Shown: positions 549-19,432, numbered from the stretch's first letter. The stretch: 64,000 bases of DNA from Deltaproteobacteria bacterium (GCA_029261855.1 JAJDAN010000024.1:124001-188000), one strand, 5' to 3'. Made by a program: numbers and translations. The notes: generated by a model from the sequence alone, not told the origin.

Positions 549-577
549 TTGCTTCTTCTCGGCGAGGTCTGCATAAC
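549..577 (+). promoter_or_regulatory. Sigma70-like promoter for the regulator/RND operon
   Basis: TTGCTT (549-554) and CATAAC (572-577) are separated by 17 bases. They are followed by the strong ribosome site AAGGAGGAG (585-593) and the ATG at 598. The match to consensus is moderate; spacing and position are the main support. Confidence 0.3.
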
Positions 578-597
578 GACTTCGAAGGAGGAGACTC

Positions 598-1836: not shown

Positions 1837-1841
1837 CGCCG

Positions 1842-4800: not shown

Positions 4801-5579
4801 CCCTCGCCCATCTGGGTATGGTGTTTCCGAGCGAGTCCCGGATGGTCCGCGTGGCGCCGGGACTGCAGCTGCTGCCCTACGCGGCGAGCGCCGTCCTCGC
4901 CGCGGTCGCGATCGTCGCCCTCGACCACTCGCCCCTGCTGTGGCCGAGCTTCGTCTACCTGCTGCTCGCACTGCACGTGGGCGGCTGCGTGGTGCTGGTG
5001 GCGGCGTGTGCTTTCGCCCCGCGCGAGGCCGTTCGCACCGCCCGTGCACGCGAGGCCGCTGTTCGCGGCGCGACAGCGGCTCGGGTTGCGAACTCGCTCA
5101 TGCACGACCTCGGCAAGGACCTCGGATGGATGCGCGGTCTCGCCAAGCGCCTGGTTCGCCAGTCTCCACGCGACACCTCACTGGGACGCGACATGTCCGA
5201 GGTGGACGCGCTGGCCGAAGACCTGGTGAGGCGGATGCGTTGCTTCGTCGACGAGACGAACGCCCAACGGCACGACCCGCCGGGCGTCGTCCGCCTCGAC
5301 GAGCTGCTCGATCGCTGCGCGAACCAGCTCGAGGGCGACCACGGCAGCGGGTGCCTCGAAGCGAACCGCGACCCGACCTGGCGCCTCATCCGCTGTCCGG
5401 AGCTTCTCTACGACATGTTGCTCGAAGGGTGCCAGGACGCGCTCTCCCAGGCGGACACGGCCACGCCCCTGCACGTCGTCGTGCGGCAGTCGGGCGACCC
5501 GGGCCTTCGACTCTTGCTCGTGGACCGGGCCGGAGCTGTGAAGTGCAGCCTGGCGGTCCCGGCGGAGGGCAGCGGATGA
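1842..5579 (+). CDS. RND/MMPL exporter fused to a sensor-kinase-like C-terminus
   Basis: The GTG at 1842 opens 1,245 residues. TM1 follows at once (about 14-33), then a periplasmic loop and two sets of transmembrane helices. Each set carries the RND helix-4 signature (VGVCDSVHLL near 305; IGIGVDDSVHIL near 700). After about residue 800 the protein goes beyond a normal RND exporter. It adds more hydrophobic segments, a small soluble part (about 870-920) ending like a PDZ fold, a stretch HLGMVFPSE typical of 7TM-type sensor kinases, then MHDLGKDLGWMRGL with H1088 as a dimerisation/phosphoacceptor helix. The final ATPase-like part lacks the N-box Asn residues (LLEGCQDAL) and the DxGxG motif. The reading frame is unbroken, so the fusion is encoded directly. 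The response regulator lies upstream and the LolA-like gene overlaps downstream. The likely role is export of a lipid or hydrophobic cargo coupled to signalling; cargo unknown. Confidence 0.82.
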   Translation: MYILARFCLHHPKAAALMLVFATGVLALGLPRVHPEFGYRVLIGDDHPAVRSLDGFIERFGGGLPIQIGWECGEGLPCGDVFDAESLSMAAAIVDTLRSSAGVSTVLGPPNAPLLVAAPAAESDRKPDREPDPEPDPEPRGFAVRRFIEHGARAGDADALAQLAVDDPLWQELLVSRDRTAAIVVVQPVDSSAETSRRVSAAVLRAVAPHRARGHRFHLTGDPIQNGIVGRDLADSTSRLVPFTILVIVAILYALSRSLRATAIALATLGVALVWTFGLLGWIGWPQDGILEVLAPLILVVGVCDSVHLLSQHAELSAAAARGADVETEETGAADSDRILEAARRVAGPCAITTATTAAAFLSFTTSDLATFHRFGSIAAFGTAACLVLTFSLLPLLMQWLPDHRPRSVATTRAWVVAIEAILGASERRAVPILVASAAVLVFCGAGWWLHLRVDHEWTESLGESSQVVQSWRFMEQRIGRSDTLEVEVVLPTGTPLESPDSLRRLRAFAERLGRLENLRSPRSIVDVIERVNQLLHDDDPTHRDIPDTATANAEILELIGFDDPGLIAQWVSFDRSRVRVSVGAPEQAFSTRERVVAGLRRIAREELPPDWQVIPTGRVAMQHAWIQDVQTTQLRSFPTALGLVFVLVAGFLRSARLGLAALVPTGLPIVVTLGAMGWSGMTLDVGRAMIAAILIGIGVDDSVHILDDYRKRRRAGSPPRTSIRAAVLHTGRAVVTTSLALALGFLTLMASAWQSIASFGFLSAVAILGALVASLLVLPALVFAFSDAPGAPRETAEAAGPGGWRACLGVLLPVVAMLAGSVLLASRDPRVWSAPCWLLPKGHVVALPGSGLCPLQLLDEIRWVADARGARIPVSTGDGIREALAGVGPVATIGLIRRGEPVTAFLPLERNTPERRVKQLAAAGGVASLLLALPVRLLARRRFRGALPFGVFVASIATVVIPAIAGQQSRASDLAAIVALATGPAALAHLGMVFPSESRMVRVAPGLQLLPYAASAVLAAVAIVALDHSPLLWPSFVYLLLALHVGGCVVLVAACAFAPREAVRTARAREAAVRGATAARVANSLMHDLGKDLGWMRGLAKRLVRQSPRDTSLGRDMSEVDALAEDLVRRMRCFVDETNAQRHDPPGVVRLDELLDRCANQLEGDHGSGCLEANRDPTWRLIRCPELLYDMLLEGCQDALSQADTATPLHVVVRQSGDPGLRLLLVDRAGAVKCSLAVPAEGSG

Positions 5580-6403
5580 AGAAGAGTCGCCGGTCGTCGC
5601 TCGCGATGCTCGCGCTGACCGCGCTGTCGGTCGCCGCCGACGCACCGTCCGGCGACGTGTCCCCGGAGACAGCGACGCAGTTGCTGAACGAGGCGTTCGC
5701 CAACCAGTACGAGATCGACAGCACGGCCCGCATCGAGCTCGTCATCCGGAACCGATCTGGCCAGGAACGGCGGCGCCACATCGATGCCGCCACTCGCATC
5801 GTCGGAGACCGTCTGCAATCGATCGGCAGACTCGTCTACCCCGAGCGCCTGCGCGGCATGACGATTCTCCAGATCGAGACCGCGAACCGCAGCCACGACG
5901 CCTACGTGTACCTGCCTTCCATGCGGTCCGTGCGCCGCGTATCCGCCGCGCAGCGCGGGGACGCGTTCTTCGGAACCGACGTAACCTACGAAGACCTCGA
6001 GCGGCGGGACATCCGCGACTACCAGGTCGTGGCCGCCTGGACCGAAACCAACGACGGTGAGGCGGTCGTCGTGGTGGAAGCCCGCCCCCGAAGACCCCGA
6101 TCCTACTCACTGCTCCGCTTCTGGATCGCCCTGGCCGATCGCGCGTTCTTGAAGCTGCATTTCTACAAGCGAGACTCGTCCGCGGAGGTGTCGGAGCCGT
6201 TCCGCACGATCGCGGCCCTGCGCTCCGACATGCTGAAAACCAACGGCCACACGCTTCCCACGCGCCTCGTGGTCGCGAATCACGCGCGCGGTACCACGAC
6301 GGAGATCCGCTACCTCGACCTGCAGGTGAACCCCGAGATCGACGGGCGAGTCTTCTCGATCCAGACTCTCGAGCGCGGCGGACGCATCCCGGGCGCGCGC
6401 TGA
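5576..6403 (+). CDS. Outer-membrane lipoprotein-sorting (LolA-like) protein
   Basis: The ATG at 5576 overlaps the RND gene's TGA (ATGA) and encodes 275 residues. It starts with a Lys/Arg-rich signal peptide (about 1-22). The body matches the COG2834 LolA-like family found beside MMPL/RND exporters, including YVYLPSMRSVRRV and a GDAFFGTDVTYEDL segment. Members form a half-open beta-barrel that carries lipid or lipoprotein across the periplasm. A translational coupling with the exporter suggests it takes the exported cargo onward to the outer membrane. There is no lipobox, so it should be soluble and periplasmic. Family assignment is firm; cargo is unknown. Confidence 0.8.
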   Translation: MKKSRRSSLAMLALTALSVAADAPSGDVSPETATQLLNEAFANQYEIDSTARIELVIRNRSGQERRRHIDAATRIVGDRLQSIGRLVYPERLRGMTILQIETANRSHDAYVYLPSMRSVRRVSAAQRGDAFFGTDVTYEDLERRDIRDYQVVAAWTETNDGEAVVVVEARPRRPRSYSLLRFWIALADRAFLKLHFYKRDSSAEVSEPFRTIAALRSDMLKTNGHTLPTRLVVANHARGTTTEIRYLDLQVNPEIDGRVFSIQTLERGGRIPGAR

Positions 6404-6422: not shown

Positions 6423-7109
6423 TCAGGCGTAGTGTTCGGAGGTCTTCGCGTCCTCAGCCACGTCGTTCCACGCGCGCAGCCACAGCCACGCGAAGCGGAA
6501 CGACAAGGTCAACCTCCACTGCAGCGCCCGCAGCTTGCGCAGGTCCGCACCCCGGGCTCGCTGGGCCAGACAGGACAACAGCTCGAGCGCAGCGTCGGGC
6601 AGGTCCGAGCGCGCATACAGCCGCGCCAGATCGAGCACGACATGGGTGTCCCAGGGTTCGATGCTGCGCGCGCGAGACAACAGCGCGATGGACTGGGCCT
6701 GTCCCGACGGACCGCGGAAGTGCATACGGCCGTCGATGAGTGTCTGAAAGGCCGCGTCGTCCTGACCCATCTTGAGCAGCAGCTCGGCGCACAGGCGCCA
6801 GGCTTCGAACTCGTAGGGAATGACGCGACAAGCCTCGCGGTAGACGGTCAGGCATTCGTTGAATCGCTTCGCTTTGGCGAAATCTCGTGCCGATCGCCGG
6901 TAGAGCTGCCACGCCTCGAAGCCGTCTCCGCGACGAGCCAGCATCGGCGCGACCCGCAGCGCAACGTCCGGGTTGTGCGGGTCTTCGAGCAGCACGCGCT
7001 TGTACAGGCCGATCGCCCGGCGATCGCGCCCCCTGTTGCGCGCGCGATGCGCTTCGGTGAGCTGCTCCTGCAGATGATCCGATGTGATCGGGCTTCTCGT
7101 GGACGACAA
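6423..7109 (-). CDS. TPR-repeat protein, end of the cytochrome operon
   Basis: This is a 228-residue helical-repeat protein. The start is TTG at 7109, supported by GGAGG nine bases upstream. Repeats such as AIGLYKRVLLEDPHNPDVAL, EAWQLYRRSARDFAKAKRFN and LDLARLYARSDLPDAALELL are typical TPR units, covering about residues 15-185. No signal peptide or membrane helix is evident, although a Trp/Arg-rich stretch near 195-215 is unusual. It lies 85 bases downstream of the 12-heme cytochrome gene on the same strand. A scaffold or assembly role for the cytochromes is inferred from position only. Confidence 0.7.
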   Translation of the reverse strand: MSSTRSPITSDHLQEQLTEAHRARNRGRDRRAIGLYKRVLLEDPHNPDVALRVAPMLARRGDGFEAWQLYRRSARDFAKAKRFNECLTVYREACRVIPYEFEAWRLCAELLLKMGQDDAAFQTLIDGRMHFRGPSGQAQSIALLSRARSIEPWDTHVVLDLARLYARSDLPDAALELLSCLAQRARGADLRKLRALQWRLTLSFRFAWLWLRAWNDVAEDAKTSEHYA

Positions 7110-7194
7110 CGCAACGGGCCTCCGGCGATTCGCCAGACCCGTGGATCGGCAGGAGTTGCCCGGTGGGGAGTGACCGAGGTCACGGGATCGCCGA

Positions 7195-8250
7195 TCAGTC
7201 GAAGTCCGAATCGCTCACGCGGTGCTCCCGATTCCGGGTGTCCTTGATCTGCGAGAGCGTTGCATCCTCGTAGACGTGGCAGGACCCGGTGCAATCCCTC
7301 AGCTCTTGCACGGTGTAGTTCACGTCGGGATTCTCGTGCTTCTTGTGAGGACCCGTCCGGTAGTCGTTTCGGTGACAGCCCGCGCAGTCGGGCGCCAGCG
7401 AGGGATCGTCGGTATAGACGACCATCTCGCTGTTCCCCGGGTGACACGCGCGACAATCGAGATTGCGGCGATGATCGCCCGGGTAGTTGGGCGAAGCGTG
7501 GCGGAAGGTGTCCGGGTCCCAGGCGTTGGTCGTATGGCACATGTCGCATTCCTGATTGGTGATGAAGTGGCCGTTGGGCTTGCCGGTAGCTTCGTTTCCG
7601 TTGTGGCAGTTCGAGCACGGCTCGGTGACGTTGCTGTGATCGAAGAACGCCGGCGACCAGGCGCGCGTGGTGTGGCACTGGTCGCATTCGGCGGTCGTCT
7701 GGATGTGGCCGTTGGGCTTGCCCGTGGCTTCCATGCCGTTGTGACAGGTCGAGCAGGGCTCGGTCACTGTGGCATGATCGAAGCGGACGGAGTCCCACAC
7801 GATCGTGTTGTGACAGACGTCGCAGTCGGCGTTGGTTATGATGTGGTCGAACGGCTTGCCGGTGGCTCCCGAACCGTTGTGACAGCTCGCGCAGCTCCCG
7901 ATCGCGGCAATGTGGTCGAAGCGGATCTGCTCCCAGGTGTTCGACGTGTGGCAATCTTCGCAGCGATTGTTCGTCGGGACGTGGTCGAGGGGCTTTCCGC
8001 TCTCCGCGCGGATGCCCGATCCATCGTGGCAGAACGAGCAGTCGGTGGGCGTCCCCGCAAAGACGCCGAGTCCGTGGCAACCCTCGCAGGGCACGTCCTC
8101 GTGAGACCCGGTGAGAACGAAGCGGGTCGCGGTGTGATCGAATTCGGGCTCGGGTCCCTGTGCGAGCACGCTTCCGCCGATCAGCATGGGGAGGACGGCG
8201 GCGGCGATGCGGATGGACGAACGATCCAAGAACTTCTGCGAACGGCTCAT
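7195..8250 (-). CDS. Secreted dodecaheme c-type cytochrome
   Basis: The ATG at 8250 gives 351 residues with a signal peptide (IAAAVLPMLIGGSVLAQ, cleavage near 31). Eleven CXXCH sites and one C-terminal CTGSCH (CX3CH) predict twelve hemes c. Residues 97-142, 143-188 and 189-234 are three tandem 46-residue modules of the form CxxCH-W-FDH-CxxCHNG-ATGKP-H. The FDH and GKPxxH histidines can serve as distal heme ligands. The last 40 residues are charged and heme-free. Its ATG overlaps the stop of the 21-heme gene, so both are made from one message. Families of this kind (cytochrome c3/c7-like) carry electrons through the periplasm or to the cell surface. Confidence 0.9.
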   Translation of the reverse strand: MSRSQKFLDRSSIRIAAAVLPMLIGGSVLAQGPEPEFDHTATRFVLTGSHEDVPCEGCHGLGVFAGTPTDCSFCHDGSGIRAESGKPLDHVPTNNRCEDCHTSNTWEQIRFDHIAAIGSCASCHNGSGATGKPFDHIITNADCDVCHNTIVWDSVRFDHATVTEPCSTCHNGMEATGKPNGHIQTTAECDQCHTTRAWSPAFFDHSNVTEPCSNCHNGNEATGKPNGHFITNQECDMCHTTNAWDPDTFRHASPNYPGDHRRNLDCRACHPGNSEMVVYTDDPSLAPDCAGCHRNDYRTGPHKKHENPDVNYTVQELRDCTGSCHVYEDATLSQIKDTRNREHRVSDSDFD

Positions 8251-9824
8251 TGGCGGCCCCGCTTGATCTGCTTCCAGGAAGTATCCACGTGGCAACGCTC
8301 GCAGTCCCTGCCGTAGGCGTCATCGTGGGGTGAATCGGGCAGGTGGCAGCTGCGACAGGTCGTTCCCAGCTCCGGGAGCTCGCCGCCGGGGTCACGCGCC
8401 TCCTGCCGGTGGCATGCGACACAGCCCAGGTCCGTGTGCGCCCCGGTCAGCTCGAATCGCGTCTGACGCGTGTGATCGAAGAGCCAACGCGGCCAGCCGT
8501 TCGGATTGTGACATTGGGCGCATGCCGGGCCCAGCCGGGCTTCGTGGGCGTCCGCACCCGCGTGGCAAGCAACGCAGGCCGTTTCGGTCGCACCATAGCT
8601 TCGGGTCACGTGACAGTCCTCACAGGAGGCAAGCTGATGCAGTGACAGCAGGGGAAAATCGGTGAGATCGTGGTCGAAACGAATTCGGCCGGCGAAGCTC
8701 GTTTCCGTGTGACAGGCGCCACAGTCGCGGCCGAGACTGCCCTGATGGACGTCGACGGTGGCGTGGCAGTCTACGCATGCGACAGGCGTCGAGCTCGCAT
8801 ACATCTCGCCAACATGGCAGAGCTCGCAGGCGAGCTTCTCGTGTGCGCCTCGAAGAGCCGTCTTCCCGTCGCGGGCGTGATCGAAACGAGACGGAGTCCA
8901 CGCCCGCGCGTCGTGGCAACGCTCGCAATTCGGCCCGCGCAGTCCGCGGTGGTCATCGTCCCGGGCGTGACAGCTCGCACAGTCCATGGCGAGCTTCACT
9001 CGCTTGGGGTCGGACGCGTGGCAGCCCTGGCAGCTCACCTCGGCGTGGCGCCCCTCGAGCGCGAAGCGGGTCGCGCGTCCGTGGTCGAAGTTTCCCTTCT
9101 TCCAGCCCGACGGGTCGTGGCAGTCGGCGCAGGCAGGTCCAAGCTTGCCACGGTGCGAATCGTCGACCCGATGGCACGCAACACACTCCATCGCGGTCTC
9201 GCCGAAGCGCTGACCCGGATGACAGGCGAGGCACGTTGCTTCGGCATGCAACCCCTCGAGCGGGAAGCGGGTCTTCGCATGATCGAAGGAGAAGTCCTGC
9301 CAGTTCGTCGCGCGGTGGCAGTCCTGGCAGCTCTCTCCGAGCTGGCCGCGGTGGGGATCCGCCTTCCCGTGGCAGGCGAAGCAGGTGCTCTCGGCCTCCC
9401 GGTGGCGGGCCCCGGACGGATGGCAACCCGAACACGCCACGACGGCATGGGCTCCTTCGAGGACGAAGTCCGTCCGCGCATGGTCGAAGGATTCCGGTAC
9501 GAGCCCCACGATGTCGGCCTCAGGCCCTTCGTGCTCGGTGTGACAAACGCGACACTCGCGGTCTCCCTCGAGACGGCCGTGGAAGCCCTCTCCACTCGCA
9601 AGGTCCTGGCCAACGGTCTCGTGGCACTTCAAGCAGAGGCTCTTCTGCGAGCTCCGATCGAATCGCTGGTGACATTCCGCGCATTCGCGGACCTCGCGTT
9701 CGTGGGCCGCGATCAGCGGACCTGGTGAGATGAGGTTCTCGAGATCAACTGCTCCGGCGTCGCCCGCAAGCGCCAGCGCGGCTCCCACGCACACGGCCCA
9801 CCGCGAAGAGTCGAACCAGCCCAT
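8247..9824 (-). CDS. Secreted 21-heme c-type cytochrome
   Basis: The gene encodes 525 residues with an N-terminal signal peptide (WAVCVGAALALAGDAGA). I count 21 CXXCH motifs: two at the N-terminus, six repeated blocks of three, and one at the end. Each block follows the plan CxxCH-W-FDH-xTxF-L-G-H-CxxCH-CxxCH-D-H with a period near 66-70 residues, so the protein is a string of triheme units. Nearly every heme site has a conserved extra His nearby, in line with bis-His ligation. It has no lipobox or C-terminal membrane helix. It overlaps the 12-heme gene by 4 bases and follows the cytochrome b-like gene after 2 bases. A long electron wire in the periplasm or outer membrane is the likely role. 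Confidence 0.92.
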   Translation of the reverse strand: MGWFDSSRWAVCVGAALALAGDAGAVDLENLISPGPLIAAHEREVRECAECHQRFDRSSQKSLCLKCHETVGQDLASGEGFHGRLEGDRECRVCHTEHEGPEADIVGLVPESFDHARTDFVLEGAHAVVACSGCHPSGARHREAESTCFACHGKADPHRGQLGESCQDCHRATNWQDFSFDHAKTRFPLEGLHAEATCLACHPGQRFGETAMECVACHRVDDSHRGKLGPACADCHDPSGWKKGNFDHGRATRFALEGRHAEVSCQGCHASDPKRVKLAMDCASCHARDDDHRGLRGPNCERCHDARAWTPSRFDHARDGKTALRGAHEKLACELCHVGEMYASSTPVACVDCHATVDVHQGSLGRDCGACHTETSFAGRIRFDHDLTDFPLLSLHQLASCEDCHVTRSYGATETACVACHAGADAHEARLGPACAQCHNPNGWPRWLFDHTRQTRFELTGAHTDLGCVACHRQEARDPGGELPELGTTCRSCHLPDSPHDDAYGRDCERCHVDTSWKQIKRGRQ

Positions 9825-9826
9825 CT

Positions 9827-10714
9827 CTAGTACATGTGCACCGCCACGACGTGCACCGCCGCGGCGAGGAAGAGGATCACCGTGAAGGGGAGATGGAACG
9901 CATGCCAGAGCGCGAACGCGCGCTCGTAGGCGCCGTACTCCCCGACGCGGCGAATCGCGGAAACCTGCCTCTTCAGCATCTTCTTCACCTCACGTGCGGG
10001 CATTCGCGACGTCCGCCCGGTCCGCTCCGTGTTCTTCCAGGCGCGCAGTGCCCGACGATACGCCGCGCGCCCACGGCTCCCGGTCGAGACAAAGGCGAAG
10101 GCACGCCCGATCCACGTCGCCCTCGGGACGAGACAGGATTCACGGAAGGCGCCGAGCGCCCGCACTGCTTCGGGCGCGCTGCGAACGAGATCCGCGAACG
10201 TGCCCTCTTCGCCCTGCGCCTGCCTTCGAAGCTCCTCGAGGGTCGCCATGCGCCCCAGATACTCGTAGTGGATCCGCGTGTAGATGAAGCGTCCAACGAT
10301 GCCACTGAGGCTGACCGTCAGCATGCAGACGAGGGCCACGTTCGCATTCAGGGAGCCCAGCTGGAAGTTCGAATGGAACAGGATTGCCGTGGGTCCGAGG
10401 AGACCGAGCAGCATGTGAACGTGGAACCAGCGCTGCACGCGGCCCGCGCGGGCGAGCGGGCGCCAACGCTTGCGCAACGAATACAGCAGCAGCAGCGCCA
10501 TCATCGCGAGACCTGCGATACCGAGCGCGTAGCCCAGACCTTCGTCGGGAACCAGGTAGTACTCGTCCCGGACCCGCCAGCCGAGGAAGACCGCGAGCCC
10601 GCACAAAAGGGCAACGGGCCCGAGCAGCGGTGCGCGCTCGGGCCTGGCGTGTCCCGTTGCAGCTGGACGCAACGGGGATGTGTCGTCTTCTGCGATGTAC
10701 GCGGATTGAGTCAA
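9827..10714 (-). CDS. Cytochrome b-like membrane protein
   Basis: About 295 residues with five predicted membrane helices: near VALLCGLAVFLGW, YALGIAGLAMMALLLLYSL, HMLLGLLGPTAILFH, NVALVCMLTVSLSGIVG and, at the C-terminus, FTVILFLAAAVHVVAVH. Histidines sit at the ends of helices 3 (FHVH and FHSNF) and 5 (WHAFH and VHVVAVH), as expected for two b-type hemes. A basic cytoplasmic loop of about 100 residues separates helices 4 and 5. I chose TTG at 10714 because GGAG lies five bases upstream. A GTG at 10849 would add 45 residues of poor quality. As first gene of the cytochrome operon it probably passes electrons between the quinone pool or ferredoxin-flavoprotein and the multiheme proteins. Confidence 0.78.
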   Translation of the reverse strand: MTQSAYIAEDDTSPLRPAATGHARPERAPLLGPVALLCGLAVFLGWRVRDEYYLVPDEGLGYALGIAGLAMMALLLLYSLRKRWRPLARAGRVQRWFHVHMLLGLLGPTAILFHSNFQLGSLNANVALVCMLTVSLSGIVGRFIYTRIHYEYLGRMATLEELRRQAQGEEGTFADLVRSAPEAVRALGAFRESCLVPRATWIGRAFAFVSTGSRGRAAYRRALRAWKNTERTGRTSRMPAREVKKMLKRQVSAIRRVGEYGAYERAFALWHAFHLPFTVILFLAAAVHVVAVHMY

Positions 10715-10849
10715 CGAGGCTCCGAACGAGGCAGACAACCAGGACCACCGCAGCGGCACTCCAGGTCGCGAACGTGAATCCAGATGAAATCGATGTTCAA
10801 GATCGAATCCAACACCGGGGTAGCGCCCCGCGTGCGGAATGCGGCTCAC

Positions 10850-11034
10850 GGCCCCATCGACTCTCGGCCGTGCCCCGATTAATCTTTGGGAAAAATATCA
10901 CAAAACTGTTCGATCGCTCCGCCGATTGCAAAGAGAGCCCTCTCTACCTCGAAGCGACGCTCCGCCGCGAAGGAAGGAAAAGGAACGAGAACCGCCCGCT
11001 TCCATCCGCGGCGGCTCCTCATGCCCACGCAGCC
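10850..11034. promoter_or_regulatory. Divergent promoter region of the electron-transfer locus
   Basis: The gap between the two divergent operons holds the most AT-rich stretch nearby (about 10878-10910, with AAAAATATCACAAAA). Read on the minus strand it contains TTGTGAT, a half-site like those of CRP/FNR-family regulators. No full palindrome is visible. Both operons must be driven from here or from within the N-terminal part of the cytochrome b-like frame. Confidence 0.35.
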
Positions 11035-13137
11035 ATGACCTCCCCGACTGGCAGTCGCCAACGAAGAATCCGAAGCGCTCAGGCTTGCGTGTCGCTCATT
11101 GGACTCGTGGCCGTGTACGCGTCGGCGGTCGACGCGCAGACCCTCCCCGAAGCATCCGGCTCGGATCGCGTGCTGCAATCTGTCGATTCCCAGCGTTCCG
11201 CCGATGGCTGGCGCGTCTCGATCCAGCTATCGATCCCGCTTCGCTACGTACGCCACACGCCTCGAGGCCACGCGGCTCTGGCCATCATCGAGCTCCAGTC
11301 CATCGGCCTCGAGCGTACCGAGGGCGGGCAGCCTGTCGGACATCAGGCGATCCGCCCGTTCGGCGGCGCGAACGATCCGCCGATCCTCGAGATCTCGACG
11401 AACCCGGCCGGACCGCGGGACCGCGTGATCGAGATCCGATTCCTGCGGGACCTGCCGTACGAGGTTTCCCAGGGAAGCGACCTTCGCCAGCTGCATATCG
11501 ATCTGCCGCGAGCCGGTGATCCCGCGGCAGAAGCGCGCGCGGCCCAGTTTCTTTCGGCGGGTCGTGATGCGATGACGAATGGCGAATACGATCGCGCGGC
11601 GCAGCTCTACACGAAGGCTCTCACGCTGAACGCTCCCGCCGCGCATCCGGAAGCGCAGGAAATGCTAGGCCTCGCCCGCGAGCGAAACGGGCAACGTGCC
11701 CATGCGCGTGCCGAGTACGAGACGTTTCTGGACAGCTACCCCGACCACGCCGACGCTCCGCGCGTACGCCAAAGGCTGCAGGCGATCACGACCGCAAGCG
11801 AGCCCGTGCCGGAGCCCAGGTTCGCAAGCAACCGCCGGTCGGACGACGACCTGCGCTTCGACCTTCACGGGGGCATCGCGAGCTACTACTCGCGCTCGGA
11901 GATCTACTTCGACGACGGTTTCGGCAGTGCGGTGACGGACCAGTCCTGGATCAACGATCTCTACTTGAACGCACGCCTCCGCACTCGGGCCTACGAGATC
12001 CAGGCCAGCGCCGCCGGACGCGCTCGCCTCGACTTCGAGGGGGGAGATGTCGGCAACGATTCCCGCGTCAACGCGTTCCTGCTCGAGGCCGAGCAACGCG
12101 GAAGTGGGTTCTGGGGGAACATCGGGCGCCAGCGCGGAGGGGGCGGGGTGACCGGACGCTTCGACGGCATGCGGCTGGGCTATCGGCCAAACGACAACCT
12201 CGACTTTCAGGTACTCGGCGGCTTCCCACTCGCGAGCTACTCGTCCGATGACTTCAACACGGATCGCTTTCAGGTAGGCAGCGTGGGCCAGGTGCTCGAC
12301 GTCTACTCCCTGTTCGACGTCGAGCTCTACAGCAACTACCAGAACGAGGACGACCTCACCTACCGCGCGGCCCTCGGCGGCCAGATCCGGCATCTGCGCG
12401 AGGGGCGTTCGATCGTCGCCAGCCTCGACTACGACGCCTACTTCAACGCAATCAACATCGCGATGCTGCTCGCCGATATAGAGGTAATGGAAGGACTGAG
12501 CGTCAACACGCTGGTCGAGTACCGCAAGAGCCCGATCCTCACGCTCGGCAACGCGCTCATCGGACAGACGGCCGGCTCGGTCAGCGACCTCCACGACGCC
12601 TTCTCGGCGAGCCAGATGAAGGACCTCGCCGAGGACCGCACCGCCGACGCCACCAACTACACGCTCGGTGCGCGCTATTCGCTCAACGATCGCTTCGACC
12701 TGAGCGGCAACTGGACCGCCTCGAAGCTGTCGGGAACGCCCGGATCGGGCGGCGTGCTCGGGACACCGAGCACGGACTACAACTTCACCTACTACGCACA
12801 GATCGCCGGTCGCGCGCTCCTGATGGATCGCGGCGTCAGCGTCGTCGGCGTGCGAATCTTCGACGGCGACCGCTTGGACGCGTACATGCTGCAGCTGAAT
12901 GGACGCTACCCGGTCGCCCCGAAGCTCCGGCTCAACCCGATCATGCGGCTCGAGTACCTGGACGGCGACGAAGACGACCAGGTTCGCTGGATCCCGCGGC
13001 TCCGATTCGACTACACGTGGTACGACGTCGTGTTCGAGGTCGACGCCGCGTTCGAAATGCTGCAATCGGTCGGCGGCGCCGATCGTCCGAACGAGTACGG
13101 CTACTCGCTCTTCGCCGGGCTTCGTTATGACTTCTGA
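11035..13137 (+). CDS. TPR-beta-barrel outer-membrane protein
   Basis: The ATG at 11035 gives 700 residues. A signal peptide ends near VYASAVDA. Residues about 35-165 form a beta-rich AMIN-like region, followed by a short TPR block (about 165-250; EYDRAAQLYTKALTLN, GQRAHARAEYETFLDSYPDH). From about 270 to the end there are alternating aromatic strands with acidic turns, ending in GYSLFAGLRYDF. The terminal Phe is the usual C-terminal signal for the BAM machinery. It stands divergent to the multiheme cytochromes and is followed after 9 bases by the ferredoxin-flavoprotein. A porin that sheathes or docks the cytochromes at the outer membrane is a reasonable inference. Confidence 0.8.
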   Translation: MTSPTGSRQRRIRSAQACVSLIGLVAVYASAVDAQTLPEASGSDRVLQSVDSQRSADGWRVSIQLSIPLRYVRHTPRGHAALAIIELQSIGLERTEGGQPVGHQAIRPFGGANDPPILEISTNPAGPRDRVIEIRFLRDLPYEVSQGSDLRQLHIDLPRAGDPAAEARAAQFLSAGRDAMTNGEYDRAAQLYTKALTLNAPAAHPEAQEMLGLARERNGQRAHARAEYETFLDSYPDHADAPRVRQRLQAITTASEPVPEPRFASNRRSDDDLRFDLHGGIASYYSRSEIYFDDGFGSAVTDQSWINDLYLNARLRTRAYEIQASAAGRARLDFEGGDVGNDSRVNAFLLEAEQRGSGFWGNIGRQRGGGGVTGRFDGMRLGYRPNDNLDFQVLGGFPLASYSSDDFNTDRFQVGSVGQVLDVYSLFDVELYSNYQNEDDLTYRAALGGQIRHLREGRSIVASLDYDAYFNAINIAMLLADIEVMEGLSVNTLVEYRKSPILTLGNALIGQTAGSVSDLHDAFSASQMKDLAEDRTADATNYTLGARYSLNDRFDLSGNWTASKLSGTPGSGGVLGTPSTDYNFTYYAQIAGRALLMDRGVSVVGVRIFDGDRLDAYMLQLNGRYPVAPKLRLNPIMRLEYLDGDEDDQVRWIPRLRFDYTWYDVVFEVDAAFEMLQSVGGADRPNEYGYSLFAGLRYDF

Positions 13138-13146
13138 GGGACCCCG

Positions 13147-14469
13147 ATGAGTTCGAGCACCGTTCTATCCGTCGCCCTCGGCGCCCTGGTCTACGGGGCG
13201 CCGCTGGTGCTGCTCGTCTGGATCCTCCTGCGCCGCCGGGAACGCGGGGACCGGGCCACGACCCGGAAGCTCGTCGAAGCGCGTGCCGCCGGCCTCGACG
13301 TTCCGCCTTCGATTCATCCCTACATCAACCCCAACCGCTGTCTCGGTTGCGCGGTGTGCGTCGAGGCGTGCCCGGAGAACGACGTGCTGGGGCTGATCCG
13401 CGACAAGGCGGTCCTCGTCACTGCAGCCAACTGCGTGGGTCACGGCGCCTGCCGCGATGTCTGTCCGACGGACGCGATCCAGCTGGTTCTCGGGACGAAG
13501 GACCAGGGAGTCGAGGTCCCCGTACTCGACCCGAGCTTCGAAACGAATCTTCCCGGCATCTTCGTCGCCGGCGAGCTGGGCGGCATGGGTCTGATCCGGA
13601 ACGCCATCGAGCAGGGGCGCCAGGTGATCGAGTCGGTTCGGCGCCTCGAGGGCATCGGCGATCCGGAACGACTGGACGTCGTGATCGTGGGCGCCGGTCC
13701 CGCTGGCTTCGCCGCCACCCTCGCTGCCCGGGAACAGGGTCTCCGCTCTCGCACTCTGGAGCAGGACGGACTCGGCGGGGCGGTCGCCCACTACCCGCGG
13801 CGCAAGTTGGTGCTCACCTCACCCGTCGTCCTGCCCCTCGTCGGAACCGTCAAGCTACGTGAGACGACGAAGGAGTCCCTGCTCGAGCTGTGGCGATCGA
13901 CCGAGCGCGAAACGGGGATCGAGATCGACTACGGCGAAAAAGTCGCAAGCATCGAACGAGACGGAGACGGCTTTGTCGTAACCAGCACCGGCGGCACCAC
14001 CCGCTGCCGCGCGGTGGTCCTGGCTCTCGGCCGCCGCGGGTCGCCTCGAAAGCTCGACGTGGAGGGAGAGAACCTCCCGAAGGTCGTGTATCTGCTGGAA
14101 GACCCGACGGACCACCGGGGACGCCGGGTTCTGGTCGTCGGTGCGGGGGACAGCGCACTCGAGGCGGCCATCACGATCAGCGACGAGCCCGGCACCCAGG
14201 TCACGTTGTCGTGCAGGGGAGACGCGTTTCCCCGCGCAAAAGCGGCCAACCGGGCGCGTCTCGAAGAGCGTACCCGCGACGGGCGCATTCGCGTGCTCTA
14301 CAAGTCTTCGGTCGAGCACGTCGATCCGGACGCCGTGCAGATCCGCACGCCCGACGGCAGCGAACGGCTCGGAAACGACGCCGTCATCGTCTGCATCGGC
14401 GGCGAGCTGCCCTTCGGGTTCCTGCGCGCGGTCGGAGTCGAAACGGAGATGCGCTATGGCGAGCCCTGA
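13147..14469 (+). CDS. Membrane-anchored ferredoxin/FAD-NAD(P) oxidoreductase
   Basis: The protein has 440 residues. One N-terminal helix (about 6-28, ending in RRRERG) anchors it with the rest in the cytoplasm. Residues 60-115 form a two-cluster ferredoxin domain. The first site is a full CLGCAVCVEACP. The second is CVGHGACRDVCP, where His replaces one Cys. A thioredoxin-reductase-like flavoprotein follows: VIVGAGPAGFAA binds FAD, VLVVGAGDSALEAA binds NAD(P), and the end keeps IVCIGGELP. The linker PGIFVAGELGGMGLIRNA resembles a displaced C-terminal FAD segment of the same fold. It can link NAD(P)H to iron-sulfur clusters at the membrane, which suits it as electron donor or acceptor for the cytochrome operon. 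Confidence 0.85.
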   Translation: MSSSTVLSVALGALVYGAPLVLLVWILLRRRERGDRATTRKLVEARAAGLDVPPSIHPYINPNRCLGCAVCVEACPENDVLGLIRDKAVLVTAANCVGHGACRDVCPTDAIQLVLGTKDQGVEVPVLDPSFETNLPGIFVAGELGGMGLIRNAIEQGRQVIESVRRLEGIGDPERLDVVIVGAGPAGFAATLAAREQGLRSRTLEQDGLGGAVAHYPRRKLVLTSPVVLPLVGTVKLRETTKESLLELWRSTERETGIEIDYGEKVASIERDGDGFVVTSTGGTTRCRAVVLALGRRGSPRKLDVEGENLPKVVYLLEDPTDHRGRRVLVVGAGDSALEAAITISDEPGTQVTLSCRGDAFPRAKAANRARLEERTRDGRIRVLYKSSVEHVDPDAVQIRTPDGSERLGNDAVIVCIGGELPFGFLRAVGVETEMRYGEP

Positions 14470-16465
14470 GCGGACGTTCCGCGGCTCGCCGTTGGCACTG
14501 CTCGCGGGATGCGCGGTTCTCGTGTTCGCGACGCCGGCCGTGCGCGCCGGCGACGCGGCACTCGAGCCGGCTCTCCGGGCGGTGCGGGACGGTCAGCTGA
14601 AACGGGCGGCGGGCACCCTCGACAAGCTGGCGCGCAGCGGCGATTCCGGCGCCGCCGTACGACTCGCGAGCCTGTACCGCAACGGCCACGCCATTCCGAG
14701 CGACTACGACGCCGCGCGCGCGTGGCTCACCCGCGCGGCTCGCGACGACGACGCGCGCGCCGCCTACAACCTGGGGATGTTCCTGCTGGAGGGCCGTGGC
14801 GGCCCAGCCGACCCCGAGCAGGGCCGCAAGTGGATTTCGCGCGCGGCTCGCGCGGGCTACGAGCCGGCACGCCGCCAACTCGTCGCCGCCAGCCGCGAGA
14901 GAGCGTCCGCCAGCGCGCGACAGAGCGCGTTGTGGAATGCGATTCTCGCCGATGACCCGGCGCGGGTGAAGCAAGCGGCGGCGGCAGGCGCAGATCTCGA
15001 TCGCGCCGACTCTCGCGGTAGACACCCCATCCACGTGGCGGCGCAGGGAGACCGCGCGGCGGCCCTGAAGGCGCTGCTCGCAGGTGGAGCGGACGTCGAC
15101 CGCAAAGACAGCGCGGGCGACACGGCTCTGCTGATCGCATCCCGCAGTGGATCCGTTTCGACGCTTCGCGTTCTGCTCGCCGGCGGGGCCAACGTACGGA
15201 TACGAGACAAGAACGGCCGCACCGCGGCCATGAACGCATCCTCGAACGGACATCTGGGCGCCCTTGAACGCCTGATCGCCGCCAGGTCGCCACTCGAGAC
15301 GAAGGATCCTGAAGGGCGGACGGCTCTGCATCTGGCAGAGCTGCGGGTGCAGGCGGGCCCGGCGAAGCTGCTGCGGCGCGCAGGCGCCCGCCCGAAGCAG
15401 AAGACGTCCGGCGGCAGTGATCTCGCGTGGCTTCGATCTTCGGCGGCAAGCCGGGGGACGACCGGCTTCCCCGGCTGGAGCCCGCTGATGATCGCGGCCT
15501 GGCAGGGCAACGCGGCGAGCGTCGAATCGCTGCTCGCCGCCGGGCCGAAGCTCGAGGACACGAACCCCGACGGCCACACCGCATTGATGCTCGCCGCGCT
15601 TCGCGGGCGTTCGAAGGTCGTGCTGCGACTGATTCGTGCGGGCTCGAACGTGGAGGCCCGATCCAAATCGGGCCAGCGCACACTCCACCTCGCCGCAGCG
15701 GGCGGGCACGCGGAATGCGTCCGCCAGCTGCTCGACGCCGGCGCCAGGCCGGACGCGGCGGACGCCGACGGCCGGACACCCTTGATGGAGGCCGTCGAAG
15801 CAGACTCGCCGGCCGCTGTCGCGTTGCTCGTCGCCTCCGGGGCGCAGCTGCAATCGCGCAGCGGATCGGGAGCCACCGCGCTCGCCCTCGCGACGCGCTT
15901 CGCCGGCGCGAAGACCGTCGCTGCGCTGATCGACGCGGGCGCTCCGACGCGCGCAGACGGGGACGCCAATGACCCCATCTGCGTCGCCGCGCACAGGGGT
16001 GACGAAGGAATCCTCCGGCTGCTCCTGACGCACGGTGCTCGGTCGGATGCCCGCTGCCCGGAAGGCGTCCCCGCGCTCGGCATCGCGGCGAAGAGAGGCG
16101 ACGAAGCCAGCGTCGCGTTGCTCCTCGAGCATGGCGCGCCCGTCGACGGCGCGAGTGCTGCGGGGAGTGCACCGCTGCTCCTCGCCGCAGCTGCAGGTCA
16201 CCCCGGGGTCTGCCGGATCCTGCTGGGCCACGGTGCGGAGGTCGATCGTCGCGGCACAGGCCGCGCGACGCCACTGATGCGCGCCGCCGCGGCCGGGCAC
16301 GCGGATGTCGTCGAGCTGCTGCTCGCGAACGAGGCGAACCCGTCCCGGCGCGACCCCCAGGGCCGAAACGCCGCCCAGCTCGCGGCCGCCAGCGGACACG
16401 CCGAGATCGAAAAGCAGATCGAACGGTCCCGCCAGACGCGGAAGAAGATCTTCGGCATTCTCTGA
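14456..16465 (+). CDS. Exported Sel1/ankyrin-repeat protein
   Basis: The ATG at 14456 overlaps the preceding gene by 14 bases and encodes 669 residues. The N-terminal hydrophobic region ends in ATPAVRA, a normal Sec cleavage site. A lipobox-like LLAGC sits early in the same segment but has too little hydrophobic sequence before it. Residues about 45-145 are Sel1-like units (AARAWLTRAARDDDARAAYNL). From about 155 to 655 there are at least 14 ankyrin repeats of the form GRTALHLAAxxGHxxxVxxLLxxGA, with a looser insertion around 310-340. Export of a long ankyrin array suggests a periplasmic docking scaffold. Its place at the end of the plus-strand operon ties it to the electron-transfer system. 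Confidence 0.85.
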   Translation: MASPERTFRGSPLALLAGCAVLVFATPAVRAGDAALEPALRAVRDGQLKRAAGTLDKLARSGDSGAAVRLASLYRNGHAIPSDYDAARAWLTRAARDDDARAAYNLGMFLLEGRGGPADPEQGRKWISRAARAGYEPARRQLVAASRERASASARQSALWNAILADDPARVKQAAAAGADLDRADSRGRHPIHVAAQGDRAAALKALLAGGADVDRKDSAGDTALLIASRSGSVSTLRVLLAGGANVRIRDKNGRTAAMNASSNGHLGALERLIAARSPLETKDPEGRTALHLAELRVQAGPAKLLRRAGARPKQKTSGGSDLAWLRSSAASRGTTGFPGWSPLMIAAWQGNAASVESLLAAGPKLEDTNPDGHTALMLAALRGRSKVVLRLIRAGSNVEARSKSGQRTLHLAAAGGHAECVRQLLDAGARPDAADADGRTPLMEAVEADSPAAVALLVASGAQLQSRSGSGATALALATRFAGAKTVAALIDAGAPTRADGDANDPICVAAHRGDEGILRLLLTHGARSDARCPEGVPALGIAAKRGDEASVALLLEHGAPVDGASAAGSAPLLLAAAAGHPGVCRILLGHGAEVDRRGTGRATPLMRAAAAGHADVVELLLANEANPSRRDPQGRNAAQLAAASGHAEIEKQIERSRQTRKKIFGIL

Positions 16466-16538
16466 AGCCCGATCGGGTACCTTGGCCCGACCCACCTTCT
16501 CCCCACCCTCTCCCCCATTCGAGCCCCCGGAGACTCCC

Positions 16539-17489
16539 ATGACCCATCCGTTCCGCTTTGGCGTCCAGATCAGCGCCCTGCCCGCCGCGAGCTGGCAGCA
16601 GGACGCGCGAAACATCGAGGCACTCGGCTACTCGTCGATCTTCCTGCCCGATCACTTCAGCAAGCAGTGGGACCCGCAGACCGCCCTCGCCGGCATCGCC
16701 GCGGTCACCGAGCGGCTCAAGGTGGGCAGTCTCGTGTACGACGTCGACTACCGGCACCCTGTGGTGTTCGCCAAGCAGTCGGCCACCCTGCACCTGATGT
16801 CGGGGGGACGTCACGAGTTCGGTATCGGCGCCGGCTGGATGGCGACGGACTATGTCGAAGCGGGCATCCCCTACGACGCGCCGGGCGTGCGCATTTCCCG
16901 ACTCGAAGAAGCGCTACAGATCATCACGTCCATGTGGGACAACAAGCGGACGAGCTTCGAGGGCGAGTTCTACACGATTCGCGACATCGTGCGCGCGGCC
17001 GACATGGGCGATGCGGGTCGCCCGCCCATCCTGATCGGCGGCGGTGGCAAGCGGCTGCTCGGCCTGGCGGGACGCTACGCCGACATCGTCGGCATCAATC
17101 CGAAGATGGTCGAGGGCAAGATCACCGCCGAGACCCCGGCGGACAGCACACCGGAGATGATCCGCAAGAAGGTCGCCTGGGTGCGCGCGGGCGCCGAGAA
17201 GGCCGGCCGCAACCCCGACGATATCGAGCTCAACTCGCTGACCTTCGTCACCGCCATCACCGACGACGCCCAGGGATTGCGCGAGGCCCTGGGTCAGCGC
17301 AGCGGCATGACGGCCGAACAGGTCGCCGACTGTCCGCTGTTCCTGACCGGTTCGGCGAGCGAGATCCGCGAGCGCCTCGAAAAGCGACGCGAAGAGACCG
17401 GCATCAGCTACATCGTCATCCAGGGCGGCGACGAGGCCGTGCTCGAGAGCTTCGCCAAGGAAATCGTGGAGCCCCTCGCCGGTCGCTGA
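16539..17489 (+). CDS. LLM-class (luciferase-like) F420/flavin oxidoreductase
   Basis: The ATG at 16539 gives 316 residues, a full-length bacterial luciferase-like TIM barrel. Characteristic pieces are LGYSSIFLPDHF, the central GRHEFGIGAGWMATDY, the cofactor-phosphate loop ILIGGGGKRLLGLAGRYADIVGIN (residues near 165-190), and the C-terminal ISYIVIQGGDE. Sequence style matches F420-dependent members (TIGR03621-like) rather than FMN luciferases, but cofactor choice cannot be proven from sequence. Substrate unknown. It stands alone between the ankyrin gene and an orphan gene. Confidence 0.85.
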   Translation: MTHPFRFGVQISALPAASWQQDARNIEALGYSSIFLPDHFSKQWDPQTALAGIAAVTERLKVGSLVYDVDYRHPVVFAKQSATLHLMSGGRHEFGIGAGWMATDYVEAGIPYDAPGVRISRLEEALQIITSMWDNKRTSFEGEFYTIRDIVRAADMGDAGRPPILIGGGGKRLLGLAGRYADIVGINPKMVEGKITAETPADSTPEMIRKKVAWVRAGAEKAGRNPDDIELNSLTFVTAITDDAQGLREALGQRSGMTAEQVADCPLFLTGSASEIRERLEKRREETGISYIVIQGGDEAVLESFAKEIVEPLAGR

Positions 17490-17741
17490 GGCGCCCCTCA
17501 CCGCAAACGACTTCTCATTCGCCTTCATTTGGATGGATCGATGCAGCGGCGCCCTCTCGCGAGGTGCCGTGGTAGAATGGGCACCACGTGGAGCCAGAGC
17601 CGGAGCCGAAGACGCTCCGGTCCTTCTGCAACGTGCTGCACCGCGCATCGCCCAGCAGCTGCAACCGATTCGGCGACGACTCGACTCCCGCACGACGCAT
17701 GTGCCCCGGACTGGGATCCGGCGAGCACCGGGAGGACGATC

Positions 17742-18311
17742 GTGGACCGAGTCAGCATGATCCGTTGGTTGGAAGAACACCCCCAGACGGTCGGCCGGGA
17801 TCCGGCCGCGCTCGTGGAACGCTGCGAGCGCGAAGTAAAGCGCCATGCCGTCGAAGACGCCTGGCTCACCGCCAAGGCGTACGTCGAGCGGATCGAGCAC
17901 GAGTGGGAACAGAGCTGGGGTTTCCCGCGCGCGAGTGAAGCCTTCGTGGCACTCGAAGTCTGTCGACGGCTGGCGCGCGAACTCGAACATCTCGAGCCCC
18001 GCCTCGAGCCGGGGGACGAGGCTCACCTGATCGGCGAGAAGCTGCTTCAGACTCTCGACCCCGAGGCGCGCCGCCAGATCGGTCGCTGGGCGCTCGAGCT
18101 CGCCCAGGCGGAGGAGCACATCGCGTGGTTGGAGATCGTCGAGCTGACCCGCATGCATGCCCGCAGCCTGGTCCGAAGGGGCGCACTCAGCCGGGACGTG
18201 TCTCCACAGAGCGGGAACTACTTCGCCAAGGCGGCGGGCGTCGCCCATCGCCTGGTGGAGGAGTACGAGGTACACGCACACCCGCGGCCGCGGCGGATGT
18301 CGCAGCACTGA
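17742..18311 (+). CDS. Hypothetical helical protein
   Basis: I do not recognise this 189-residue protein. The GTG at 17742 is chosen because GGGAGG lies just upstream; an ATG at 17757 is the alternative. The frame stays open about 210 bases further upstream, but that part reads as Arg/Ser/Thr-rich noise. The product is rich in Glu, Arg and Leu and should be almost wholly alpha-helical (EVCRRLARELEHLEPRLE, QAEEHIAWLEIVELTRMHAR), with no signal peptide, membrane helix or Cys pair. It ends in a basic His/Pro-rich tail. The 252 bases before it hold a TAGAAT element near 17573 and nothing else I can name. Confidence 0.6.
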   Translation: MDRVSMIRWLEEHPQTVGRDPAALVERCEREVKRHAVEDAWLTAKAYVERIEHEWEQSWGFPRASEAFVALEVCRRLARELEHLEPRLEPGDEAHLIGEKLLQTLDPEARRQIGRWALELAQAEEHIAWLEIVELTRMHARSLVRRGALSRDVSPQSGNYFAKAAGVAHRLVEEYEVHAHPRPRRMSQH

Positions 18312-18535
18312 ACCCCGGAGCACGCGAGCGCTGATCCCCCCGCTCGCGCCACCGGCGGACCCCTGCGAGCGCCAGCGCAGCCGATTCCGGGCCGCCGTGA
18401 TCGACCGCGGCCGTGTCTCGGTCTGCGGTCGGCACCTCCTCCTCTGTCCCTCCGTCCGCCGTCAGGAGCGATAGAATACGGGACGCGTCCCGAATCCATC
18501 CGACAGTCGCATTCCGACGATCGACAGGAGAGCTC

Positions 18536-19432
18536 GTGAACGGTTCCGGTTATGAAGCACCGCGTACGGTCGAAGAGACCGTCACGCTGCTGCAGCAGGC
18601 GAATGGCGCGGCACGCGTCCTGGCGGGGGGCACCGACCTCCTGGCCCAGATGAAGATGGGCATGACGTCGCCCGCACTGCTGATCGACGTGAAGAAGATC
18701 CCCGAACTCGCGAGCATCGAGCAGACCGCCGACGGTGGCTTCCGCATCGGTGCCGCAGTGTGCGGCGCCGCACTCGCGGAGCACGCGGCCCTGGTCGCAG
18801 CCTGGCCGGGCATCGTCGAAGCCGCGCGTCTGATCGGATCGGAGCAGATCCAGGGACGTGCATCCCTTGGCGGCAACCTGTGCAACGGATCACCGGCCGC
18901 CGACAGCGTTCCCGCGCTGATCGCTGCAGGGGCGACCTGCACGATCGCCGGCCCCGGCGGAACCCGCAGTGTCGCGGTGGAGGACGTGATCACCGCACCG
19001 GGCAAGACCTGCCTCGCCACCGGCGAGCTGGTGGTCGACTTCCGGCTGCCGCCCCGACCTGACGGCTCGGATGCCAGAGCGGCCAAGGCGGGTGACGCCT
19101 ACCTGCGGATGATCCCCCGCAGCGAGATGGACATCGCGATCGTGGGTGCCGGCGTCAGCCTGACCCTCGACGAAGCGGGCGTCTGCACAGCGGCTCGCGT
19201 GGGCCTCGGGGCCGTCGCCGCCACACCGCTGCGCGTCGACGCCGCAGCCGCAGCCCTGATCGGGACGACCCTGGACGACGCGGCGCTCGCCGCCGCCGGG
19301 GAAGCTGCCTCGGCTGCCGCCCGTCCCATCGACGACAAGCGAGGCACGATCGCCTATCGCAAGCAGGTGGCGGGGGTGCTGACCCGTCGGGCCGCCAAGA
19401 TCGCGCTCGCACGCGCAGGAGGAAACGGCTGA
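18536..19432 (+). CDS. Molybdenum hydroxylase FAD subunit (CoxM/XdhB-like)
   Basis: The GTG at 18536 follows CAGGAG and gives 298 residues, the usual size for a medium subunit. The FAD pyrophosphate loop AGGTDLLAQM (about 27-36) and the second FAD segment ASLGGNLCNGSPAADSVP (about 105-122) are both intact. The C-terminus has the CO-dehydrogenase flavoprotein domain (ARVGLGAVAATPLR). It carries electrons from the iron-sulfur subunit to the external acceptor. Its TGA overlaps the ATG of the next gene. A TAGAAT element at 18472-18477 may be the -10 box of the operon. Confidence 0.92.
   Translation: MNGSGYEAPRTVEETVTLLQQANGAARVLAGGTDLLAQMKMGMTSPALLIDVKKIPELASIEQTADGGFRIGAAVCGAALAEHAALVAAWPGIVEAARLIGSEQIQGRASLGGNLCNGSPAADSVPALIAAGATCTIAGPGGTRSVAVEDVITAPGKTCLATGELVVDFRLPPRPDGSDARAAKAGDAYLRMIPRSEMDIAIVGAGVSLTLDEAGVCTAARVGLGAVAATPLRVDAAAAALIGTTLDDAALAAAGEAASAAARPIDDKRGTIAYRKQVAGVLTRRAAKIALARAGGNG

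Follow-up and report, generated by a model that had tools for sequence, protein, structure and literature searches.

What do two divergent gene clusters encoding multiheme cytochromes, an outer-membrane barrel, a membrane flavoprotein and an ankyrin-repeat protein do together, and which way would electrons run through their products? We addressed this question for positions 6,423 to 16,465 of a 64,000-nucleotide stretch of DNA (the window) from Deltaproteobacteria bacterium (GCA_029261855.1, JAJDAN010000024.1:124001-188000). The answer matters for PCC3, which is widespread in the genomes of iron oxidizers and treated as a possible iron oxidase. With a conserved NADPH-type flavoprotein, in some cases fused, PCC3 would have a cytoplasmic source of electrons and its direction of flow would be simple to test; such a partner also bears on the use of PCC3 as a marker of iron oxidation. 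We propose that the products of the locus probably form a protein wire that moves electrons from a fuel inside the cell across both membranes to the outside.

Organization of the locus

An earlier, sequence-only reading of the window had listed the genes of the locus, and each of them was found where it had placed them (Table 1). From the middle outward, the minus-strand genes encode a cytochrome b, a 21-heme cytochrome, a 12-heme cytochrome and a TPR protein, and the barrel operon on the plus strand diverges from this cytochrome operon. The cytochrome b and 21-heme genes are separated by 2 bases, and the 21-heme and 12-heme genes overlap by 4, suggesting that the three genes form one transcript. 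On the plus strand, 9 bases lie between the barrel and flavoprotein genes, and the flavoprotein and ankyrin genes overlap by 14 bases.

The flanks lie outside the module. Just upstream, positions 549-6403 (+) encode an HAE3-like MMPL/RND-type transporter with a tail that resembles a histidine kinase by eye, and after it a LolA-like outer-membrane lipoprotein-sorting protein. Downstream, positions 16305-19432 (+) encode, as judged by eye, a luciferase-like oxidoreductase and an FAD-binding molybdopterin-dehydrogenase subunit.

Table 1. Coordinates of the genes, domains and motifs of the locus, and of the fused frames of three other genomes.
Feature	Position	Strand	Basis
TPR gene	6423-7109	-	outermost minus-strand gene, beyond the 12-heme gene
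12-heme c-type cytochrome with signal peptide; counterpart of the PCC3 'extracellular' cytochrome	7195-8250	-	11 CXXCH + 1 CX3CH
21-heme periplasmic c-type cytochrome	8247-9824	-	21 CXXCH, all invariant in 12 members
Inner-membrane di-heme cytochrome b, PCC3 'IMP'	9827-10849	-	conserved motifs
Cytochrome b WX3HX13H motif 2 (W315, H319, H333)	9851-9907	-	alignment
Cytochrome b SGXXG motif (S182-G183-G186)	10292-10306	-	alignment
Cytochrome b WX3HX13H motif 1 (W141, H145, H159)	10373-10429	-	alignment
Outer-membrane protein: N-terminal beta domain, TPR, 22-strand barrel	11035-13137	+	Pfam, predicted model
TPR region of barrel protein	about 11521-11799	+	
Barrel domain, residues 274-699	11854-13131	+	predicted model
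Membrane-anchored Fe-S/FAD/NAD(P) flavoprotein, YpdA/TrxR-like, probably circularly permuted	13147-14469	+	Pfam, motifs
First Fe-S site (C65, C68, C71, C75)	13339-13371	+	alignment
Second Fe-S site (C96, H99, C102, C106), His for second Cys	13432-13464	+	alignment
Segment matching the C-terminal end of Pyr_redox_2, ahead of the first Rossmann motif (putative permutation)	13498-13617	+	Pfam
FAD-binding GxGPAG Rossmann motif	13675-13731	+	Pfam, alignment
Presumed NADP-type Rossmann motif GxGDSA ... RG...R	14140-14241	+	
Exported Sel1/ankyrin-repeat protein	14456-16465	+	signal-type N-terminus, Sel1 + ankyrin repeats
Fused flavoprotein-cytochrome b frame, L122	9971-12226		
Fused flavoprotein-cytochrome b frame, L125	9947-12220		
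Fused flavoprotein-cytochrome b frame, L127	5734-7959		

The locus is a member of the PCC3 family

PCC3 was proposed in 2017 from the genomes of iron oxidizers as a predicted porin-cytochrome complex of Alpha-, Beta- and Gammaproteobacteria. Its described parts are a porin, an extracellular cytochrome, a periplasmic cytochrome (median, 21 hemes) and an inner-membrane protein, about 300 amino acids long, with five transmembrane segments, SGXXG on TM4 and WX3HX13H on TM3 and TM5 (He et al. 2017, PMC5566968). The window cytochrome b carries this signature of five transmembrane segments, SGXXG and two WX3HX13H motifs. The five segments were read from hydrophobic stretches, of which an automatic hydropathy scan called four. 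The WX3HX13H and SGXXG residues are conserved in relatives, and largely so across phyla; the match to PF01292 is weak and below the cut-off, and the paired histidines are invariant. Since the first 70 or so residues are not conserved, translation may actually begin downstream of the first GTG. The locus also holds a periplasmic cytochrome of about 21 hemes, an adjacent PCC3-family barrel and a homologous second cytochrome.

A study of Sideroxydans lithotrophicus ES-1 reports two PCC3 clusters, Slit_0867-0870 with 17/21 hemes and Slit_1446-1449 with 24/28 (PMC8788666). Two loci of one genome in our Gallionella family search, L154 and L155, have 17/21 and 24/28 hemes, exactly the counts of these clusters, from which we infer that the genome is that of ES-1. 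Between the window and L154, identity amounts to 40% for the 21-heme protein (full length), 36% for the cytochrome b, 34.5% for the 12-heme protein against the 17-heme protein, 26% for the barrel (E 3e-32) and 51% for the flavoprotein, the gene of which adjoins this first ES-1-type cluster. Because every testable sequence feature of PCC3 is present, we conclude by homology that the window locus is a PCC3 member. The sequence-only reading had regarded the locus as unlike known porin-cytochrome systems; this stands for MtrCAB and Geobacter Pcc and falls for PCC3 (PMC5566968).

The same reading had counted the flavoprotein and the ankyrin protein as added parts, and this claim held. Supplements aside, neither an ankyrin protein nor a ferredoxin-flavoprotein is named as a PCC3 part in the passages found in six papers with terms that varied by paper (PMC5566968, PMC10734462, PMC8788666, PMC12442390, PMC12016527, PMC13386937), and titles and abstracts in the literature gave nothing relevant on a porin-cytochrome system with either partner. 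Both partners of PCC3 therefore appear to be unreported. Three things are new here: the flavoprotein as a partner, which can be fused to the cytochrome b; the ankyrin protein as a partner in some members of the family; and the range of taxa.

The module recurs across genomes

The sequence-only reading had staked its proposal on barrel and cytochromes co-occurring in other genomes. This search was run and co-occurrence was found, leaving the proposal unrefuted. At a loose threshold, the barrel was detected in 25 of 80 relatives, in some through its TPR part only. In wider stretches around it, the cytochrome b, the 21-heme protein, the second cytochrome, the barrel, the flavoprotein and the ankyrin protein recur with a partly shuffled gene order. 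Judged from sequence, a six-gene neighbourhood that recurs across the order with 21 invariant heme sites is far beyond chance. The operon parts had been presented as one unit, which is borne out for these six genes but not for the minus-strand TPR gene. We found no counterpart of the latter in the other loci compared, and ruled it out as a module member.

At E <= 1e-15, 17 of the 284 genomes of the phylum, including that of the window, encode the barrel, and 15 of these belong to the same order. All 17 have a flavoprotein scoring at least 640 bits, the next score being 550, and none of the barrel-less genomes among the 284 has a flavoprotein of this class. The ankyrin gene follows the flavoprotein gene in every own-order locus with a long enough contig (16/16), and also in two further loci of the class, L181 and L182. 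In Gallionellaceae, where we gathered PCC3 loci by the 21-heme profile alone, 20 of 26 intact loci include the flavoprotein. The other six, all with a large second cytochrome of 23-34 hemes, lack it, which means that the flavoprotein is not obligatory. One Gallionella MAG (G311, the genome of L058) has three PCC3-type barrel genes, on contigs C46, C105 and C117.

Furthermore, we searched 84,980 species genomes with the flavoprotein and kept the best 80 of 424 loci, 49 of which have at least 4 kb on both sides. Among these 49, a cytochrome b of the module type is present in 47 and a protein with at least nine hemes in 46. Many of the best 80 of 424 loci lie outside the 2017 range, in Bacteroidota, Ignavibacteria, Acidobacteria, Planctomycetota and Gemmatimonadota, with a core of cytochrome b, flavoprotein and multiheme cytochromes with up to 70 CXXCH; no strong match to the PCC3 barrel profile was found in these other-phyla loci. 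PCC3 thus now extends beyond the three proteobacterial classes named in 2017, and a related flavoprotein-cytochrome core exists in several other phyla.

In Bacteroidota, L094 (9147-17908, Yeosuana) and L097 (9112-18863, Emticicia) have the order cytochrome b, flavoprotein, 23-heme protein and 31/43-heme protein. Next come an exported protein of some 540 amino acids without a Pfam match, which may be a different barrel, and one that resembles a lipoprotein. Both cores adjoin a gene for ResB/CcsA cytochrome assembly (by Pfam in L094, by eye in L097).

Multiheme cytochromes and barrel

The 12-heme protein has an odd C-terminal CX3CH as its final heme site besides 11 CXXCH. Because a C-terminal CX3CH or CX4CH recurs in seven relatives, the previously claimed total of 33 hemes (21 + 12) is right. 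All 21 CXXCH sites are invariant in 12 aligned 21-heme proteins. No solved structural homologue of the 21-heme protein was found at E 0.01. Histidines outside the motifs number 22 for 21 hemes and 14 for 12 hemes, respectively; bis-His ligation is therefore possible for every heme. In the recurring loci, the second cytochrome has 9-31 CXXCH. Open frames with very many CXXCH, which places them among the most heme-rich single proteins, were seen beside flavoprotein and cytochrome b genes in L100 (13119-18362, 70 motifs), L077 (2193-7331, 67) and L070 (2211-7319, 67).

In the model predicted for the barrel protein (pLDDT 83, pTM 0.58), a beta domain at the N-terminus is followed by TPR helices and a barrel of 22 strands. 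Among the matches listed by VIA-align, the closest (Z up to 19) are barrels of outer-membrane transporters, likewise with 22 strands. The matches listed by Foldseek and VIA-align are generic outer-membrane barrels, and the absence of MtrB there is uninformative either way. The predicted barrel has no plug domain, and so could leave room for a slender heme wire; the model is compatible with a porin-cytochrome complex without proving one.

A membrane-anchored flavoprotein with two Fe-S sites

The flavoprotein combines a transmembrane helix (residues 9-27) with Fer4 and Pyr_redox domains. In most members a net positive charge follows the helix, which would place the rest of the protein in the cytoplasm. 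At the second Fe-S site, H99 takes the place of the second cysteine and is invariant across phyla; the second cysteine is missing from the first site as well in the flavoproteins of L154 and L058. The FAD/NAD(P) part most resembles YpdA and TrxR-like ferredoxin-NADP reductases (7a7b, 7a76, 3ab1). The protein falls outside YpdA and thioredoxin reductase by its score of 156.8 bits against TIGR04018 (cut-off 339.9, last 52 profile positions unmatched) and by the aligned flavoproteins having no redox-active CXXC besides the Fe-S sites. Apart from the Fe-S ligands, the sole invariant cysteine in them is C416, which stands isolated.

From its first position on, PF07992 aligns with residues 177-433, while a weak match to its final 47 positions lies at residues 118-157. 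In addition, a TNxPGxFVAGE segment stands ahead of the first Rossmann strand; in relatives, this segment closes the fold at the C-terminus. Weak Pfam matches supporting a permutation were found in three of four flavoprotein fragments, and rejoining the protein in the order of solved YpdA did not raise its score (85.9 vs 85.6 bits). Given the weak Pfam matches and the motif order, circular permutation is the simplest reading, likely rather than proven. We take GxGDSA ... RG...R to be an NADP-type motif. R357 and R363 presumably occupy the positions where TrxR binds the NADPH phosphate, making NADPH a likelier substrate than NADH.

Sequence support for a partnership of flavoprotein and cytochrome b

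L122, L125 and L127 each encode flavoprotein and cytochrome b as a single open frame, 742-758 residues long, that contains two WX3HX13H motifs. The three genomes are distant, L122 coming from an Anaeromyxobacter MAG and L125 from Planctomycetota, and several further flavoprotein frames of similar length exist in the phylum. These natural fusions are strong evidence for direct passage of electrons between the two proteins. The tree distances of these two proteins are correlated over 43 loci (r = 0.91) and within the Gallionellaceae set (0.92), as are those of the 21-heme protein and barrel (0.94), part of each correlation being shared ancestry. Taken at the level of sequence, the partnership of flavoprotein and cytochrome b is well supported. 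The earlier proposal that the locus could link NAD(P)H with the outer membrane is its most likely reading, and the fusions reinforce it.

Direction of electron flow

We consider, with fair confidence, that the locus encodes a porin-cytochrome conduit of the PCC3 type together with the enzyme that feeds it from the cytoplasm, passing electrons outward from NADPH to an extracellular oxidant. NADPH rather than NADH, the outward direction, the locations of the parts, the acceptor and the role of the ankyrin protein are what we infer. Electrons would pass from NADPH to FAD and the two Fe-S sites of the membrane-anchored flavoprotein, on to the two b hemes of the inner-membrane cytochrome, and then through the 21-heme periplasmic wire and an outer-membrane passage held by the barrel to the 12-heme cytochrome, which would reduce Fe(III), Mn(IV), humics or another oxidant outside the cell. 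The Sel1/ankyrin protein may act in the periplasm, either as a scaffold or in assembly.

Thermodynamics and published expression data together suggest the outward direction. Flow from Fe(II) inward to NADP+ is strongly uphill, by several hundred millivolts plus the membrane potential; with the flavoprotein joined to the cytochrome b, this favors outward flow. The outward model is also supported by the decrease of both ES-1 PCC3 clusters with Fe(II), as reported in one study (PMC8788666), and countered by the rise of one PCC3 inner-membrane component during iron oxidation in strain CL21, as reported in another (PMC12442390). Electron exchange between the cytochrome b and quinones is conceivable too, and likewise counts against the outward model.

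It is unlikely, in our judgment, that electrons run inward. In this reading, which is that of the published PCC3 model, Fe(II) or some other donor outside the cell would pass electrons through the cytochromes and the cytochrome b to the quinone pool, and the flavoprotein would be an accessory that has a separate job. The published model, a hypothesis drawn from habitats and iron oxidizers (PMC5566968), agrees with the commonness of PCC3 in Gallionellaceae (PMC10734462), with the CL21 data and with the six intact Gallionellaceae loci that lack the flavoprotein. The ES-1 response speaks against it, and the fusion to the cytochrome b makes a separate job for the flavoprotein unlikely.

A purely periplasmic system, in which the cytochromes would store or supply electrons for periplasmic reductases and the barrel would do another job such as transport, seems to us improbable. 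Surface location is proven for neither cytochrome, second cytochromes have plain signal-type N-termini, and in some relatives other module genes separate the barrel from the cytochrome genes. Nevertheless, barrel, 21-heme protein and second cytochrome are co-inherited with correlated trees, barrel genes accompany cytochromes in both Myxococcota-like and proteobacterial loci, and the modelled 22-strand barrel is unplugged. Finally, a role of the flavoprotein in cytochrome maturation or thiol redox, like that of thioredoxin or bacillithiol reductases, is very improbable despite its kinship with these enzymes, given that it carries Fe-S sites, lacks a CXXC disulphide, has no invariant cysteines other than the Fe-S ligands and C416, and forms one polypeptide with the cytochrome b in three genomes.

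Beyond the outward reading of the window locus, we tentatively extend the idea, in a form that could well hold, to PCC3 at large: many PCC3 loci may be NADPH-driven outward reductases, not iron-oxidizing conduits. The permuted Fe-S flavoprotein and di-heme cytochrome b, sometimes fused, would then constitute an NADPH:multiheme-cytochrome reductase in Myxococcota-like bacteria, Proteobacteria, Bacteroidota, Acidobacteria, Planctomycetota and others, an analogue of the eukaryotic ferric reductase/NOX with a different flavin domain.

Comparison with known systems

The window locus and PCC3 have in common the barrel, the 21-heme cytochrome, a second multiheme cytochrome and the five-TM cytochrome b. 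The locus differs from PCC3 as described in 2017 by its Myxococcota-like host, its divergent barrel and cytochrome operons and a second cytochrome of just 12 hemes. MtrCAB, MtoAB and PioAB work alike, with a barrel and multiheme cytochromes across the outer membrane. However, homology of the barrel to MtrB was ruled out, as neither the barrel nor the genome has a match to MtrB_PioB (PF11854). MtrA and MtoA are decahemes of the DmsE family, whereas one cytochrome of the locus has 21 hemes instead of 10, and the 12-heme protein scores 40.7 bits against the DmsE-family TIGR03508, far below the cut-off of 192.2. Geobacter Pcc (OmbB-OmaB-OmcB) also works alike through a porin with periplasmic and extracellular cytochromes; PCC3 is not homologous to it, according to He et al. 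(PMC5566968).

With the YpdA bacillithiol-disulphide reductase and TrxR-like ferredoxin-NADP reductase, the window flavoprotein has the FAD/NAD(P) fold in common. Unlike them, it is anchored by a TM helix, contains two Fe-S sites and an FAD segment that is probably permuted, and lacks a redox-active CXXC. The likeness of the PCC3 HX13H motif to ferric reductase/NADPH oxidase (FRE/NOX) was already pointed out by He et al. (PMC5566968). Both FRE/NOX and the window proteins would carry electrons from NADPH through a flavin to two b hemes across the membrane. The window system is unlike FRE/NOX in its other flavin domain, in the Fe-S sites in between and in the delivery of electrons to a multiheme wire, and the likeness seen here is one of function.
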